Positions 32,623 to 60,763 of a DNA stretch of 64,000 nucleotides are shown here, in pieces. This DNA is from Plumapathes pennacea (taxonomy: Eukaryota > Cnidaria > Anthozoa > Antipatharia > Myriopathidae). The stretch spans positions 22,248,597-22,312,596 of the forward strand of contig OZ038466.1 in NCBI GenBank assembly GCA_964036295.1. Direction: 5' to 3'. The notes under the pieces are model-generated. The model saw only the letters and a program-made list of their open reading frames with translations, made no database searches and was not told the DNA's origin. The number at the start of each line of letters is the position of its first letter. Positions within the stretch are counted from its first letter, which is position 1. Made by a program: the position numbers and the translations under genes.

Positions 32623-34041
32623 TTATATCCAAGAAGTTCTGAGGTCGGAGCTGACAACAACATGAAATGGACTTCCCTTGATGGGCTTTCCCCGAACTTT
32701 CACCTCCAGAATGATCCGTCCGGCTTCCTTGGGTGTATATGTCACTTCGTAAGTGCCATTTTGTTTGTCGATTATGCTATCGGTGCGAAGCTGTGTCCCA
32801 TCTTCCTTTACCATGTTGACACAAACTGGCTCACCAGATCTACCCAGCGGTTTACCCTCGCGGTCATTTAAAACGATGACTAATTTCGCTGGTCTCGCCA
32901 CCGAAGCGAGTTTAGTCCCCACACCCCTAGCTGTACATTCTGGTGGGTAGGCGTAGGACGAGTCAAGCCAACCAAAGTTGTTGATCGCCTGTTGTAAGCA
33001 AGTGTCATCTGCCCTGAAGTGAAGCAAACTTACTTCTAATGGCTCCAGGTTTTTCGCTTCTCTAAGCATGAGCTCAGCCAGCCTAGACGTAAGAAATTGT
33101 TTCAGAACCAATGAAGTTCCTTCCTTGTGGTTAGCGCTGCTGTGCAAATTAATTTCCGTGACCCTGCAAGCATGGTGTAGTTGCTTCAAAGTCGTCTTCA
33201 AACTTTCTTCTTGGGTTTTCAGAATTTCTAACCGTGCTTGTCGTACCAGTTGGACTTGATCTCGAAGCTCTTTCTTCCGTTTCCAGAACGTCATGATTTG
33301 AAAATCAAATATCAAATCGATCTCGCTCAGAATTTTCTTGGCTTTCAAGCTGACCTCTGCTGTCATTGTTTGAACTCTCGGAATACCCTTCTCTATCTCT
33401 TGAGCGAATGCCTTCGCTCGTTGGATGAGGCCGGATAGCTCAGCACTGCACTTTTGAATAGCATCTTCCAACTCGAGATGCTTATGATTCAAATGAAGCT
33501 CCACACTGCACTTCTTACAGATAGGCTGGTCGCAAGTCTCACAAAACATGTTAAGCATCTCTTGCGTGTGTCGTGGACAGAGCAAAGGTCGCCTAAAGGC
33601 GCGTAGTGATTGCTTCTGTAATTCCTCAAACGAGACTTGTGTGTGGGATTTTGAAAGTCGCGCTCTTTTGTGAGCCTCGCTATGCAGGTCACACAGATAC
33701 TGCGCACACTCTTTGCACCGACAAACTCCCGGGGAGGCCTGGGCCTCATCACATACATCACACTTGATTTTTTGTTTACCGTGTAAAACGTGGATCATAT
33801 CCAGCACACTGTACATCAAGTTGTCTGCGGGGAGATTTTCAACATCGTGACTAGTTTTGATTTGCGAGGATTGTTCGTGGCAAACAGGACAACTGAAGTG
33901 CCCGTTGAGCTGGTTCTCAATGCAACGTTTGCACAGCGAGTGAAGACAAGGAAGAATGCGTGGTTCCTGTAGGATTCCTTTGCACTTGGGACAAAACAAA
34001 CTCACACCAAATTCAGTCTTCCCAGGCACTGCTGTGGCCAT
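32623..34041 (-). CDS. TRIM protein: RING, two B-boxes, coiled coil, filamin domain
   Basis: A single uninterrupted 472-residue frame on the minus strand. RING finger at residues about 17-54 (CPKC...CLHSLCKRC...CPVC). B-box 1 at about 94-130 (CDVC...CKECAQYLCDLHSEAHKR). B-box 2 at about 155-190 (CPRH...CETCDQPICKKC). The coiled coil runs from about 195 to 310. A filamin-type Ig domain at about 370-463 ends in KGSPFHVVVSS, and the stop follows seven residues later. The order matches TRIM45 and lacks the NHL repeats of its neighbour at 37469-40944, with which it shares long blocks (EPRILPCLHSLC, CDVCDE, CKECAQ). Predicted cytosolic E3 ubiquitin ligase. Lack of introns suggests an intron-loss or retro-derived paralogue. 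Confidence 0.9.
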   Translation of the reverse strand: MATAVPGKTEFGVSLFCPKCKGILQEPRILPCLHSLCKRCIENQLNGHFSCPVCHEQSSQIKTSHDVENLPADNLMYSVLDMIHVLHGKQKIKCDVCDEAQASPGVCRCKECAQYLCDLHSEAHKRARLSKSHTQVSFEELQKQSLRAFRRPLLCPRHTQEMLNMFCETCDQPICKKCSVELHLNHKHLELEDAIQKCSAELSGLIQRAKAFAQEIEKGIPRVQTMTAEVSLKAKKILSEIDLIFDFQIMTFWKRKKELRDQVQLVRQARLEILKTQEESLKTTLKQLHHACRVTEINLHSSANHKEGTSLVLKQFLTSRLAELMLREAKNLEPLEVSLLHFRADDTCLQQAINNFGWLDSSYAYPPECTARGVGTKLASVARPAKLVIVLNDREGKPLGRSGEPVCVNMVKEDGTQLRTDSIIDKQNGTYEVTYTPKEAGRIILEVKVRGKPIKGSPFHVVVSSDLRTSWI

Positions 34042-37000
34042 GTCATTTTATATATATTCCACGTTGTGTGTAGGACTTCTGTTGGTTTGGGGCTGTGCTG
34101 CTGATTTGATATACAGGGCTCCAGTAGTAATACCACGAAACTGCAAAAATAGGTAAGCATATAACAAGTTATGTAATTGGGGTGATGACGAGGAGTGCTT
34201 CCTTTCTTCACGGGAGAGTGTATAGTAAATCCAGTAAGGCGCGCAGACTGAACGACTATAGGGAACAGAGGGAACGACTCGCAGGCTAGCCTGTAGATGC
34301 ACGATGTGAAGCGGCTGTATCCGTAAACCAGCGGTCTTTTAGCCGGGGCCTGAGGGAAAACGTGTAGATTAAGAAGGTGTGGACTGGGGACGAGAGAGAA
34401 GACAAGGATACAGACAGTCAGAGAGAGAGAGAGAGTGTGTGTGTGTGATAAAATGACAGCGATTGCACTTACTAAAGAAGTAACTTATGCTGTTATTACA
34501 ATAAAGTACTAAAATACGTATCTACGTGCATGAGGTAAAGCCCAACACTGAGGAGTCTGCAAACACTGGGAATATCAGTTGGGAAATGATGCAAACCGAC
34601 CGTATGAACTACAGAAACGGTCTTCCGGAAGCCGGAAAAGTTGAGCTGATGCGGAAACAGGGCGACGAATCAGAGGAGAAATGAACAAGGACCAGAATTC
34701 ATGCACAGCCCTGCGTCTGTCTTCTTAAGCGAACTAGGATAGGTCGACAAACAAGGGCATTTGTATGACTATATAAACAAGGGCATTCGTGTGATTATAA
34801 AGCCACACTTAGCAACGATCAATCGATCCTATGTCGTGCCATTTACTGTAAGACAATAAGCTGACTTACCTAACCGAGTTCACAACTGGTGCTTTTCAGT
34901 TGGTTGAGATTGGCTGGGTAGGCTCATGCAACCGAAAACAATCATCGAAGACGCGGTAAGCATTTGTTTTTAAGACGTCACTCTGAGAAGTCAAGTCAAT
35001 GCCTGTCTTCCATACTCAGCAGGACAGGAAATAGCGCACGCGCTTTAGATATTCAAATAATCGAGTAACCTAATCTTCCTGCGTGTCAACAACTTCTATT
35101 AAATTCTCTTCACCGACACTTCAACCAATATTAATTCACACTTTAACACGGCTTCGTTTGGATCAACGGCCAAGCTTGTCAGGCCTATTAGCGTTATGTG
35201 TTTACATAGCTCGAACATGCTGTCTGTTAAAATTAAGGCAACGCTAGTGACACTTTTATGAGTTTTAGATCCAACTCAATCAAGTAGTCAAACGATGAAA
35301 AGAAAGAAATAGAAAGTAAAGAAGAATGACGTTCGGCCTTTGGAAGCATCTGCTGTGGGTGGCTAGTCTTTTTTGGACATCAGTGCGCAAAACTAACTTG
35401 AGATCACGCAATGCGACTTCACCCAGACAAAACCTGGCTAAACCATGAACAACTCTTAGTTGTACTGACCCTAATCAGATCATAAAACTTAGAAACGTAC
35501 GTAGCCGCTTCACTTCCACTTGAGGCCCGCGAGAGAAGCATGCTCACTCCCGGAGGCGTGAGACTATATATAAAATGAATCCCGCTACTGATACCGCTGA
35601 TTTGAAATTAAGTTTTGACCAATTCGTCAAACATCTTTGATTCGACGCTGCATTCGTCGACCCGTCAAAAGTTACAATGCACATTGGCCAATGACTCAAC
35701 TGTGATAACATGTCTCTTACCGCTGCAAACTGAAACCGTACGGTTAGTATCAAGAGTGTTTTCAAATTACTTTCTTCCGGCTTTGCTTTATCTAGTGTTC
35801 ATTTGCTGGCTTTTTCGCGTGAACCACAGCACGAAAAAGACACAAGAGCCGTACGTAAATTGATAATTAGAGCACTAAATTCAGCCAGGGGGGAGTCGGC
35901 TTAACGTGTTTACTTTGGCATAAGCCTTACATCCTGATTATACTTTCCATTTCCGTCTGAAAATCACGCTACGATTTAACAAATTGACGTCAGTTTTTTA
36001 TGTGTCTGTCCTCTTATTGATCACGAAACGCGTCATAACATTGTCAAAACGTTGTGGATCCACGAGGCGCTTCGCCGAGTGGATCCGCAACTTTTTGACA
36101 ATGTTATGACGCGTTTCATGATCAATAAGAGGACAGACACATAAAAAACTGACGTCAATTTGTTTTTTACAATAACAAAACTCAAGCGACGACGCGGGGA
36201 AAACACACAAGAAAACTGGATTTTGTTCAATTTGACCGAAATGTTGTCAACAAATTTTCCCGCTTTCTAATTGGTCGAGGTTAAAATTTAAGACATTTCA
36301 TTGGCCAAAAAGTGACAGTTTGACGTGGGCATTTCGCGCGTGCAAAATAAAATTTTGTCAAAGTAGTTGGAAAGAAATGAAACTAGACGCTTTTCTGCGC
36401 GCTGCGGTTTTCTCGACAATTTCAAGACAAAGCTCAAGGAAATTCGCCTCTGAACACTTCTGGTTCTCTACTTCAAATGCCGAATGTCGCTTTTGCAAGA
36501 ACTGAGGTAAAATTGAAGCTGAATTCACCTTCTTCGTCCAAATCACTGTCGTCAGCACTCGATTTTATGTGTCTGTCCTCTTATTGATAATGAAAATTAG
36601 CCAATCACAAAGCGAGAAACTGACGTGTTATTGTAAAATCTTTTTTTGCTTAGATTACACAAAAATGTAGCATAAGATATATTCGCCCTACGTGGGTGGC
36701 ATAGAGACAATTCATAGTTGGATCAGCTAGGCCTGAATTGCACGCGATCAAATAGCAAAAAGTGCTCCATCAGTTGCCTTGTGTAACTAAGGAGAAAACC
36801 GCAGTTAGTGCCGCTTTGGTCTCAGTTCATAGTGTCCAAATTGTACCCAAGTATTAAGGGAGATCATGGAAACCCGGCGTGACTAATGTGTGCTCTTTGA
36901 GAGCTTCCATCCTATTTGACAGATTACAAGTTGGGAATTGTTTTATGAACTCCGCTCAACAACACTGCGAACATGGCCATAGTAGACTTTATTACACGAC

Positions 37001-37468: not shown

Positions 37469-40400
37469 TCAAAATACTTTCACTTGATCGGACGAATCGG
37501 TGACCACAACTCGTCCTAAACAATCTAACGCAACCCCGAAAGGACTATTCAGACATTGCTCCGCAGGTCGAGCAAGAAATGCACCATCCTTTGAGAATAC
37601 TATCAAGCTGCTGCTGTTGCTATCTGCGGCAAATATGTTGTCTTCTGAATCCACTGCTATTGCTTCAGGAACGAAGAAAGCGTTTGGTTCACCAAGCAAC
37701 TCTTTCTGCTGCAGTTTCATTCGTCTCAGGGGTTTACCTTCTTGAGAGAACACTTGGAAACCACCATCGTTTGCCAGCGCCACAATCACTTCACCTGGGA
37801 AAGAAAGAAAAAGTGAGTGGAAAGAGGAGGAAAGGGGACGATGGGCTCCTTGCACAGGAACTGGCATGGGCTTCAAAACGAGGCTGTCCTGACTACCTTT
37901 GGAATTTGTACATTTAACTCGCCAAATGAAACATGTGCATCTCCTCTGTAGACGCCTTGGTGCTTCAGTGCGATGGGAAACTCTCTTGTATTATTATGGC
38001 AAATTTTGTGCCACATTAGCACGAAATTCGGAATTCTATAAAGCTATTAAAAAACAATTTATAAACTTCTCGGCTATCTGGAATGCTTCCTCCTCATCCC
38101 TCGAAGGGAGCTTTGCATAAAATTCATTGCTAAGGTGTGCACTACTCTCTCACCTTCGCTATTTACAGCAATGCCATTAGGGCCGTTGAGTAGGCCGTCA
38201 CTCTCGTCAGTCGTACTGCCGCTAAAGTTGTACAAACTCTGCCCACTGCTCTTAAACACTTGGATTTCCTTATTCTGGTAATCGGAAACAAAAATGCGAC
38301 CTTCACGGCTGGCAGCCACATGGCAGAAATTCCCAAAGTTCTGGCCGCGTCCTTTCCTTGCAGACTCCAGTCTGGTGAGGAAATTTCCATCGGAATCAAA
38401 TACCTGGATGGAACTGCCATTCCAATCAGAAACAATAATAGTCCCATCTTTCCCGATTGCCACGGCATAGGGTCCCCCGCTAAATTCCCCCTCCTCTGTA
38501 CCCTTCTGTCCAAACTGAAAGAGAAAGTTCCCTGAGTTATCGAATACTTGAACCCTGAAGTTGTTCCGGTCGCAGACGATGATTCTGTTCCCGTTGTCAA
38601 CAGCCACACCACGAACACCGTCCAGATATCCCGGATGATCACCATGGCAACCTATAACGGCTTGAGGCTCGTTCATGTTGGTGTAATCTCGTTTGTCGTA
38701 GGGAACGTTGACAGTAAAGGGACACTGTTTCAGTGGAAATCCTCTTATCGTTATGTGAATTCGGTGTTGTCCTACCGCAGTAGGACTGTACTGCACCATG
38801 TGTCTGCCTTCTTTTTTTGTTGTGATCTCTGCAATGACTTTGTTCGTTCCGGCTGGAGGTTCAATCTGGACTTCTAGTTGTGTTTCGTCACGTGTAAATA
38901 TTTTTCCCTTTCGATCTCTGCAAAAAACGATGTGAAACGATCAAAATGTTGAAGTCAAGCGTACCCTAATAGATGAGTATATTAGAGCCTTTAACTGAAC
39001 CTAGACTGAATGGATCAGCTACTAAGTGCGCCTAATGTTCGACACCCACCTCGTAATTACTGTGAACTCTGCCTTAACACCAAGTCTGGCGTCACTTAAG
39101 CCTTTTCCTTCCGCTGTCGAAGTGGCGAAGTATGGATAACAGGTGTCTAGATAGCCATAGGCGCCAATTTCCTCCAGCAAAGCATCGTCGTTACAGCAGA
39201 GTTTGAGATGATAATCTTCACGCGGGAAAAACTCGTGCTCTTCCGCCAAGAGAGACTCTAATCTCTGGGATATCAGGTCTTTTGTCGATAGTAGGTACAC
39301 GGCGTCTCCTGATGGGGGCAACAAGTTTTGTTCATGTGGCCTGTAGGGCTTACGTCTCTTAATCAAACGTTAATTACCAAAATAGGGAAGGAGTGAATGA
39401 GGTATTAAACCGCTTCTTTATTCAGTAGCTTCAAACCCGAGCTATGTACTTACAGTCAATACAGAGGCAACCCACAAAACAGGTCTCAAGTCTGCGGCAA
39501 ATGACTTTATGTAGACTATTTTATGTAAAAAGAAACAAACACCACTTAGGCCTCCATTCAAACTACCAACCTTCCTCTAGCGTCCTCTTAACAAAGTGAC
39601 ATGAACCGCGAAGCTTGTCTCTAGCAGCTGCTAGACGATTCTTTTGCTGCTGAAGGGCCGTCTTTCTTGCAATGCGAACCAACTCAGCGGCAGCTCGGAG
39701 CTCTTTCCTTCGCTGTTCCAAGGCCCGGATCTTAGAATTGATGCGGTCGTCTATGTCTCGGATTGCGCCATCTGCCTTCGCATTCACCATTCCCAAGGTG
39801 TAATCTAATACTGGGACCGCTTTCTCGACACGAACGCACAAGCATTTTGCTTTGTCCAAGAGGTCTGAGAGTTTGGGGCGTATTCTGGTGTGAGCTTCCT
39901 CTACAAACTGACATCGATGACGTCTGTGATCACGCAAGGCGCAGTTTCGGCAAATACTTGCGTTACATGAGTCACAGAAGAGTATGAGTTTTTCATTTGC
40001 GTGCGTTTTGCAGAAGCTCGGTCTGTGGAGCTCTTTGAGAGACACTGACCGCAGATGCTCTGAAAATAAGAAAACAAGAAGAAAAGAGAGATGAGATGAA
40101 TGGTATCAGTGGATCCCCTGCGCCGACGCAGTGAAGAACTATAATTTCTCCTAAGCACCATTGCTATATTTTAGAGCACATGCCCTCCATTTAGGTTTCC
40201 CTTCAACAGTAGGTCCTAGTAGTTTTCTAAAGCTTGCAACCTGACTTGTCTCAGAAAACATGACCTTGAGTCATTTTCACCACAGGCAGTGAAAACCTGA
40301 CATAAGGCCGTAAAATTCCTCAAATAACCTACATAATTATACCTCGAAGTTCACTTTAAACCAATTAAACACAACAACGCAACCTTGTTGTGACCTGCCC

Positions 40401-58678: not shown

Positions 58679-60763
58679 CTTCAGATCCATTGACATCCAT
58701 GGTGTGATATTCGTTAAAACCAAGAGGAACTACCTTATATTTAGTAATGCTTGCCAGTTGGCTACTGTAGGCATTTACAGGGTAATGATATTATAATTTT
58801 TACCACAACACGCTAGTTTCTCGCTCTCTGATTGGTCGATTTACCATGGTAAATAGGAGTCCAGACAACGATGCTGACGCCAGCTGACGCCAGCATATCA
58901 CGTTTTGCAGCGAAATACAACGAAAGTTTCATGTATATTTCTAAATGTTGTGGTAAAAAACAAATTTCCACTGGTTTGCCGTGGTGTGGACTCTTATTTA
59001 CCATGGTTTACGTCATCACATGGTCAAAATTAGTTGCGGACTCACTCGGCGAAGCGCCTCGTGAGTCCACAACATTTTGACCATGGGATGACGTAAATCG
59101 TGGTAAATAAGAGTCCACACCACGGCAAACCAGTGGAAATTTATTAAATATAATTAATGATTAATGCAATGTGGCCATAAACAGTGGGATGCCAGTAATG
59201 GTGAATCAACTAAGATTCAATTTGGCAAGTTATACATGTCATAAAGAAGCTGCCATTTCAAGCATTAGCCCTTTGTATGTGTGAGTGCTCTTGCTGAAGC
59301 TATAAAATGCTCAAAGCGTTTAGCTTTCCCACATTTACTTTCAGTTGATTTGGGCCAAAACTATAGGTCTGCAATTCTCTACTTGACCAGTGTACTGCTT
59401 TACTCTTTTTATGAACCCAATAAGCAAGAAGCAAGAAATATTGATTCAACTCTTGAGCTGTAAATTCAGGCCCTCAATATTGCAGATCCCCTAACAACTT
59501 TAGATGTTTATTATTAATAATAAATAATTATATATTACTGTGCAAAATTAACTCTGAACTAATAGTAATAATAATATGAATTGTAATTACTATATTCTAC
59601 ATTATTGTGAACTCTGAATAAAACCTGAATGCAATATACAAGATTCTACAGTGACTGAAATGAGATTATTACTTGTCCCATAAACAGGACATGATTTCTC
59701 ATTGGTCACATGAAAATATTATTTTTTTATTACTTTAACTTAGTATCAATTACCGGTAGTTGACCTATAAATTACAATCTTTTGGTTTTGCTGTACTCGA
59801 TGCCCATTGTGAGAACAAGTAAGTTTGGTGTGAGAGTTTCCTGATAAAAGAACATTATTTTTTTATTCACTGTATTGACTTGAATATTAAAATAATAGAG
59901 ATAGGTGAAAGAATGAATGGATAGATAGGTGCCAGTACTCTACTACCTGTATAAGTGTGTGTTTACTTGGCAAATAATAATATTATTGCAATGGTTGTAT
60001 GCAGTGTATAAACAATAAACCATGTAAAAGTAATATGGTGCATTGACTTTAATATGGTCAGCACAGTATTACAATAAATTGCTACTGTACATGGGTCCTG
60101 TTGCCTTTTTCCTCTCTCCCAAGTACCTGCTTGTATAAATTGGGACTATGTTGGAACCTATATGTACACTACTAGATTTGCCCTATGAAACAACTATGAA
60201 ATTTACTTCTACCATAGAACATAAGGGGGGGGGGGGGGGGGGGGGGGCTGTTTCACATGGTTTATGTGAAATACAGTCAACTCTCCCTTAGCAGACACCT
60301 CTCACACAGATTTGGTCCATAATTTCATGCTAGAGCCTTTGTTTTCTGAGCCTTTTGACTAATATTTTCTTCTAAACTATTATAAAAATAACTACTTTAC
60401 AAAGAAAATACAACAAACTGGAAATTGGTCCTTCCTCCAGCTTTAATCTCAGTAATCTATCAAGAGTTCCAACCCAGCCAGACATTCTTGTAATTTTTGC
60501 AGTTTACACTCCCTTTTGATTTATAGACTGTCCACAGCTGGAGGAATATTGATTTACTGCAACTTACAAGCTTCATAGTCAAACAGCCCAAACTACATGA
60601 AGCCACAATCTATCCGTCCTTGATCCACAGTCCAATAACTGTACAAGTCAGTATGTATGTCACTGACACACCCCATGGCCTTTCTGGCCAATTTAAGTTA
60701 TCCATTCTACAGTGTCACTGGCAAACTTCACCGCCCTTTCCTCCTGCACGAATAGCATCACAA
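58679..60763. other. Intergenic DNA between convergent genes
   Basis: Contains the palindrome at 58962-59142, a poly-G run (60227-60247), and a CAGTCAACTCTCCCTTAGCA fragment at 60274-60293 resembling the end of the CAGTCAA MITE class. No gene recognised. Confidence 0.5.
58962..59142. mobile_element. Palindromic foldback element, copy 2
   Basis: A near-perfect palindrome of about 181 bp with arms AAATTTCCACTGGTTTGCCG and its complement. The hairpin centre at 59033-59073 is ACTCGGCGAAGCGCC. It is homologous to the element at 35978-36164, both in the core and in the flanking TTTTGAC.ATG..ATGACG part of the arm. A partial extra arm (ACCATGGTAAATAGGAGTCC) lies at 58842-58861. Confidence 0.85.

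Follow-up and report, generated by a model that had tools for sequence, protein, structure and literature searches.

Two repeats in the window, which is the whole 64,000-nt stretch of Plumapathes pennacea DNA analysed here, belong to two related families, f1 and f2, each ending in a hairpin of about 90 base pairs. We consider it probable, at roughly 0.7, that both consist of non-autonomous elements of the Helitron2/Helentron type, a kind of rolling-circle transposon, in which the hairpin tip is recognised and the arms are occasionally recopied by template switching. The question behind them is a puzzle of molecular evolution, namely how both arms of a long perfect hairpin change and yet remain paired. 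A single genome with more than 1,000 core matches of a 90-pair DNA hairpin, endowed with fixed asymmetric markers, makes one-sided, paired and inverted states directly countable, and f1 and f2 offer a natural test of how perfect DNA hairpins are maintained.

Two hairpin cores in the window and the elements that carry them

The original prediction, made from the letters of the window, was that two 41-bp hairpin cores differ only by compensating stem changes. The 41-mers at 36051-36091 (plus strand) and 59033-59073 (minus strand) are indeed identical save for four positions (GGATCCAC/GTGGATCC versus GGACTCAC/GTGAGTCC), all four of which are paired in both 41-mers, and the tip GAGGCGCTTCGCCGA is unchanged between f1 and f2, as had been claimed. 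A single T-G wobble in the outer stem is common to both. Folded as DNA, each 41-mer gives -16.5 kcal/mol (z -5.8, 0 of 200 shuffles as good). Both are the centres of 187-nt palindromes, and the corresponding ends, folded as single-stranded DNA, reach -101.5 kcal/mol for f1 (z -25) and -94.3 kcal/mol for f2 (z -22), again with 0 of 200 shuffles as good. Since these fold energies beat every one of the 200 shuffles, the two window hairpins are far beyond chance. No Rfam family of structured RNA was found at gathering score within the window.

Each palindrome is one end only of a longer non-coding element, of 663 bp for f1 and 350 bp for f2. In the alignment of copies, one side of the palindrome has a sharp boundary (TTAA), and on the other side conservation continues to a second boundary, ...GTAAAA, beyond which the flanks of the sampled copies are unrelated. 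A stand-alone palindromic MITE is ruled out, since conservation runs on one side up to a defined end. What was first described as a palindromic element family is thus a repeat family with a hairpin kept paired, but the element is larger and rolling-circle-like, and the palindrome forms one of its ends. The features are as follows.

35976..36638, minus strand: f1 element, 663 bp, non-autonomous, 5' TTTTACAATAACA ... GTTAA 3' on the minus strand (copy alignment and empty sites)
35978..36164, minus strand: f1 3'-terminal palindrome, 187 nt, about 90 pairs (self-alignment and DNA fold, z -25)
36064..36078, unstranded: hairpin tip common to f1 and f2, with inner GGCG/CGCC stem, CTT loop and GA/GA flanks
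36163..36177, minus strand: inner (3') inverted repeat of f1, TGTTATTGTAAAAAA, lying on the inner palindrome edge and matching the 5' end repeat
36624..36638, minus strand: f1 5'-terminal inverted repeat TTTTACAATAACACG
36563..36588, unstranded: 26-bp block TTTTATGTGTCTGTCCTCTTATTGAT near the f1 5' end, an exact repeat in the palindrome arm at 35996-36021
58798..59147, plus strand: f2 element, 350 bp, non-autonomous, 5' TTTTACCACAACA ... ATTTATTAA 3'
58959..59145, plus strand: f2 3'-terminal palindrome, 187 nt (self-alignment and DNA fold, z -22)
58946..58960, plus strand: f2 inner (3') inverted repeat TGTTGTGGTAAAAAA
58798..58810, plus strand: f2 5'-terminal inverted repeat TTTTACCACAACA
59046..59060, unstranded: f2 hairpin tip, letters same as in f1

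In both elements the inverse of the far end sits at the inner edge of the palindrome (TGTTATTGTAAAAAA in f1, TGTTGTGGTAAAAAA in f2), and the f1 and f2 5' ends can be aligned over their first 50 bases or so. The f1 consensus palindrome has 90 pairs, all Watson-Crick save one T-G wobble; the f2 consensus forms 89, two of them T-G wobbles, and has a 2-nt bulge. The f1 palindrome of the window itself shows two one-sided differences from its family, one of which is also found in the sampled copy L035. Elsewhere in the window, minus-strand open frames at 32623-34047, 38074-38940 and 39563-40105 resemble, by eye, TRIM (RING/B-box, filamin) and NHL-repeat proteins.

Copies in the genome

A genome search with the core, proposed along with the original prediction, was carried out over 290 Mb in 24 contigs. 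A 20-mer of the core gave 1,789 matches with at most 2 mismatches (890 and 899 by strand), far more than two copies, and the reversed 20-mer, used as a control, gave 0 matches in the same search. Forty of 1,649 f1 candidates were scored, and those 40 were 99-100% identical to the window copy. Near-complete palindromes have a mean identity to their consensus of 99.1% in f1 (n=36) and 98.3% in f2 (n=54).

Two sets of copies were used. The first consists of 104 core copies (109 hits without duplicates) found via the core or via f1, a choice by which the tip is ascertained. Copies of the second set were chosen by flank, a match to a degenerate 18-letter pattern on the TTAA side being required; among the 100 matches listed out of 119, 5 were already in the sample, and the first 60 of the remaining 95 were used. 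Near-complete palindromes made up 34 of these 60 (5 of 17 in f1, 29 of 43 in f2). The pair counts exclude rows having over 10 gaps (40 of 163), leaving 123 near-complete palindromes, and the window's own f1 copy was excluded from the counts within families.

Insertion sites and junctions between copies

Among the 99 copies whose two ends could both be read, 13 had an empty site elsewhere in the sampled sequence, each with an ungapped alignment block spanning the junction and a flank identity of 81-100%; other hits, being self-matches, simple repeats or tandem copies, were left out. Ten of the sites are the better ones (L003, L005, L023, L036, L060, L061, L070, L092, L135 and L147) and three are more diverged (L006, L022 and L093). 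At all 13 the target is intact, with no bases duplicated or lost. The target-site duplications suggested as a check on the original prediction are therefore absent from these 13 sites, and insertion without duplication is a trait of Helitron2 and Helentron elements.

A TTAA duplication is likewise ruled out by the empty sites. This bears on whether f1 and f2 could be palindromic MITEs of the TTAA type (piggyBac or Kolobok), like the CMITEs of corals, which are palindromic, about 100 bp long and provided with TTAA duplications (PMC2872659). The outer end of f1 and f2 does usually start with TTAA, but at one end only and as part of the element; it is absent from empty sites, and the TTAA duplication of CMITEs is lacking in f1 and f2. 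We hold such an origin to be extremely improbable.

Copies joined end to end were found in 32 5'-to-3' junctions genome-wide, 31 of them without an intervening base and 1 with one base, and the same genome-wide count gave 0 head-to-head (5'-5') and 0 tail-to-tail (3'-3') junctions. Joining of 5' to 3' ends is a general trait of rolling-circle elements, and junctions in one orientation only are as expected from joined ends or from rolling-circle read-through. Two of the junctions were read letter by letter, and because one of these joins f1 to f2, at least some junctions may be insertions at a resident end and not read-through.

Alternatively, f1 and f2 might be unusual cut-and-paste (DDE) elements that insert without duplication and have one end palindromic by chance. 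Such elements would account for the short inverted repeats, and for the target, which is A/T-rich and follows a rough symmetric consensus, TCAAW|...WTTGA, clearest in f1. However, the ends of f1 and f2 are asymmetric, no duplication was seen, and the junctions of copies have a single orientation (32, 0, 0); we regard this possibility as very unlikely.

As to the choice of target, a strict TT dinucleotide was not observed, the junction bases being mostly A/T but variable (L070 lies between C and T). Insertion into hairpin loops of the target, hinted at by L010, L023, L060 and L061, is not claimed, as pairing across the insertion point, examined at 22 offsets in 92 copies, does not clearly exceed that given by column composition (z of 1.9 at best). 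L010 is an f1 copy near the centre of a long host palindrome, its flanks being inverse copies of each other.

Resemblance to Helitron2 and Helentron elements

Anatomy like that of f1 and f2 is described for Helitron2 and Helentron elements (PMC3627910, PMC4067079, PMC5148889). Helitron2 elements have a repeat at the 5' end whose inverted partner lies directly upstream of the 3' hairpin, start with a 5' T, and include short non-autonomous families inserted without duplication, with the 3' repeat about 20-30 bp from the end (PMC3627910, Bao and Jurka 2013). The same asymmetric pair of inverted repeats, the 5' T, the short non-autonomous copies and the lack of duplication are all present in f1 and f2, but here a 187-nt palindrome stands between the 3' repeat and the end, in place of some 20-30 bp. 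The Helitron2 target, TTTT|T/C, was not seen for f1 and f2. A 5' hairpin on the terminal repeat, another Helitron2 feature, is missing from f1; in f2 this repeat does pair, but no better than in shuffled sequence (z -0.05).

Helentrons and HINE/DINE-1 elements have subterminal inverted repeats, a 3' palindrome, a terminal T-run and abundant short non-autonomous copies (PMC4067079, Thomas 2014), and f1 and f2 resemble them in each of these respects, including a T-run at their ends. They differ in that the f1/f2 palindrome is far longer (it measures 5-10 bp in mite HINEs; PMC4067079), the TT target was not observed, and no partner with an endonuclease was found. More generally, the 3'-terminal hairpin that f1 and f2 share with Helitron2 and Helentron elements is about ten times longer than in the publications consulted, where 3' hairpins measure 5-20 bp; no long terminal palindromes in Helitrons were noticed in the partial coverage of the literature searched. 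f1 and f2 broaden the range of rolling-circle transposon ends, and searches for short 3' hairpins could misfile elements of this kind as palindromic MITEs. A canonical Helitron1 (5' TC, 3' CTRR, A|T target) was rejected, the ends of f1 and f2 being TTTTAC...TTAA.

The tie to Helitron2 and Helentrons is one of resemblance, and the step to membership is not closed: no autonomous partner with f1 or f2 ends was found among the Rep loci compared, there is no strict TT target and no clear 5' hairpin. Helitron_like_N was matched at least 150 times in the genome (of 209 candidates, 150 were scored), and many of these matches fall in open frames exceeding 1,000 codons. The autonomous relative suggested together with the original prediction, that is, an element with f1 or f2 ends, was found neither near the Rep loci of contig C1 nor in ten Rep loci that were read. 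On C1 the nearest of 27 Rep-domain loci lies 17 kb from any of 98 exact cores, and the ten loci, read with short flanks, contained no tip and no convincing f1 or f2 end. Sixteen of the 27 Rep loci of C1 are within 11.5-15.1 Mb, a region poor in f1 and f2 cores (3 of 98, where about 8 would be expected).

Joint change of the two arms

Between the f1 and f2 consensus sequences, 63 of the 90 pairs are unchanged, 24 are changed on both sides, 2 on one side, and 1 is gapped. All 24 two-sided changes are Watson-Crick (13 transitions, 11 transversions); of the one-sided differences, one is at the open end and the other beside the f2 bulge, and both arms show the gap, in mirror position. Within families, the 123 near-complete palindromes contain 296 one-sided changes, a majority as expected of mutations after insertion. 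Changes of both arms to another Watson-Crick pair number 11, against 1.65 expected by independence (Poisson P ~1e-6), and two further pairs are altered on both arms without pairing. When the register was slid as a control (12 slides), 3 of 33 both-changed pairs were complementary, compared to 11 of 13 in register. Two of the 11 paired changes concern the same tip-stem pair, in L116 and L117. Taken literally, the pattern opposite to the original prediction, uncompensated stem changes in many copies, is what we found within families, most changes there being one-sided; the compensation it proposed stands in the excess of paired changes over chance and in the 24-to-2 ratio between the consensus sequences.

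Some copies are informative individually. In L087 the only changes are two transversion pairs, and one of these variants is exact in five arms genome-wide, two in L087 and three elsewhere. In L146 both fixed asymmetries of the inner arm are replaced by the complement of the outer arm; both are retained in 50 of 83 f2 copies. Paired changes found in a single sampled copy may belong to unsampled subfamilies, and are not proven separate events. The variant pattern of L056 was set aside as uninformative: 4 of its 7 matches are within 75 kb on C1 and look like local duplication. In addition, the second arm of L056 has further changes within that pattern.

Arm correction cannot be frequent, because all 40 near-complete f1 copies retain the T-G wobble at 78/110, and 12 of the 40 have an unresolved T-G at 13/175, against 1 in which it is resolved to C-G. 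The matching f2 wobble is retained in most f2 copies. Survival of the 78/110 wobble would suit a scheme in which selection alone keeps the hairpin paired, unpaired elements being immobile and second, independent mutations restoring pairing with no arm copying. The 13/175 position points the same way, as L035 has the matching second change that a two-step path predicts. Yet transversions, for which there is no G-T intermediate, make up 11 of the 24 paired differences between the families, paired changes occur also in single sampled copies such as L087, and selection alone leaves inverted tips unexplained. We consider it unlikely.

Constancy and inversion of the hairpin tip

The tip is exact in 100 of the 104 sampled copies, a set found via that same core. 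Exact tip patterns placed 501 tips, 477 in normal orientation and 24 inverted relative to the body of the element; the 24 are a lower bound, as exact patterns miss diverged copies, and L012 and L159 are inverted yet outside the 24. In three copies read directly (L012, L122 and L159, only L122 being among the 24), asymmetric markers beside the tip are inverted together with it. A regular flip-flop of the element end is unsupported, since 477 of the 501 placed tips share one orientation.

In the reading that we favour, the palindrome would be a 3'-terminal hairpin marking the end of strand transfer, its tip being read in sequence and held constant, while in the stem pairing would suffice. A Rep/helicase protein would act on this hairpin, which would function as a terminator. 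With arms this long and this close to perfect, DNA synthesis across the hairpin would now and then switch template and recopy one arm from the other. A mutation on one side would thereby become a paired change, and the tip would sometimes be inverted; new families would therefore arise with new, still well paired arms. We infer that template switching, and not another form of arm correction, does the recopying. The two causes initially put forward for the paired stems, a replication-protein target and arm-to-arm copying, both have some support. Arm copying could also be part of the transposition cycle, the 3' end folding back to prime or template its own arm and inverted tips being regular outcomes of that cycle and not rare errors, much as in the rolling-hairpin mode by which linear single-stranded DNA genomes are replicated. 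We judge this version decidedly unlikely.

Occasional recopying of the arms of a terminator, the preferred reading, has parallels in two systems. In Helraiser, a canonical Helitron, a swap of the stem kept about 90% of activity and a change of the loop equalled deletion of the hairpin; the 3' hairpin acts there as a terminator, and exact head-to-tail junctions arise as well (PMC4778049). The critical loop, exchangeable stem and head-to-tail junctions of Helraiser are matched in f1 and f2 by a constant tip, a changeable stem and head-to-tail junctions, and a constant tip on a changeable paired stem would, by analogy, fit a Helraiser-like terminator. Helraiser differs in having TC...CTAG ends and a 19-bp palindrome, both lacking in f1 and f2. 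In RNA genes, template switching is reported to produce both paired changes in stems and inversions of loops (PMC8794818); that study calls its own evidence for the upkeep of short stems circumstantial, and paired changes with loop inversions are rare there. The types of change are the same, but there in short stems of RNA genes and here in stems of ~90 pairs at the end of a mobile DNA with more than 1,000 core matches. Paired hairpin changes are already known from one Helitron2 pair, Helitron-1N1_CQu and -1N2_CQu, between which they were noted (PMC3627910). The size of the hairpin plus one-sided, paired and inverted states together in one genome was not found described in the literature searched, which was covered in part.

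Five sampled copies (L113, L115, L139, L144 and L148) consist of the outer arm only; they end in or before the tip and are followed by unrelated sequence, and resemble 5'-truncated insertions, or deletions of which one breakpoint lies in the hairpin. Two others are mixed: in L158 the outer arm is of f2 and meets an inner arm of f1 close to the tip, and in L118 an arm and tip of f1 continue into sequence of the f2 end. Across the 123 near-complete palindromes the inner arm is more changed than the outer: of the singletons lying over 20 nt away from the open end, 78 are in the inner arm and 42 in the outer (32 and 10 in f1, 46 and 32 in f2).
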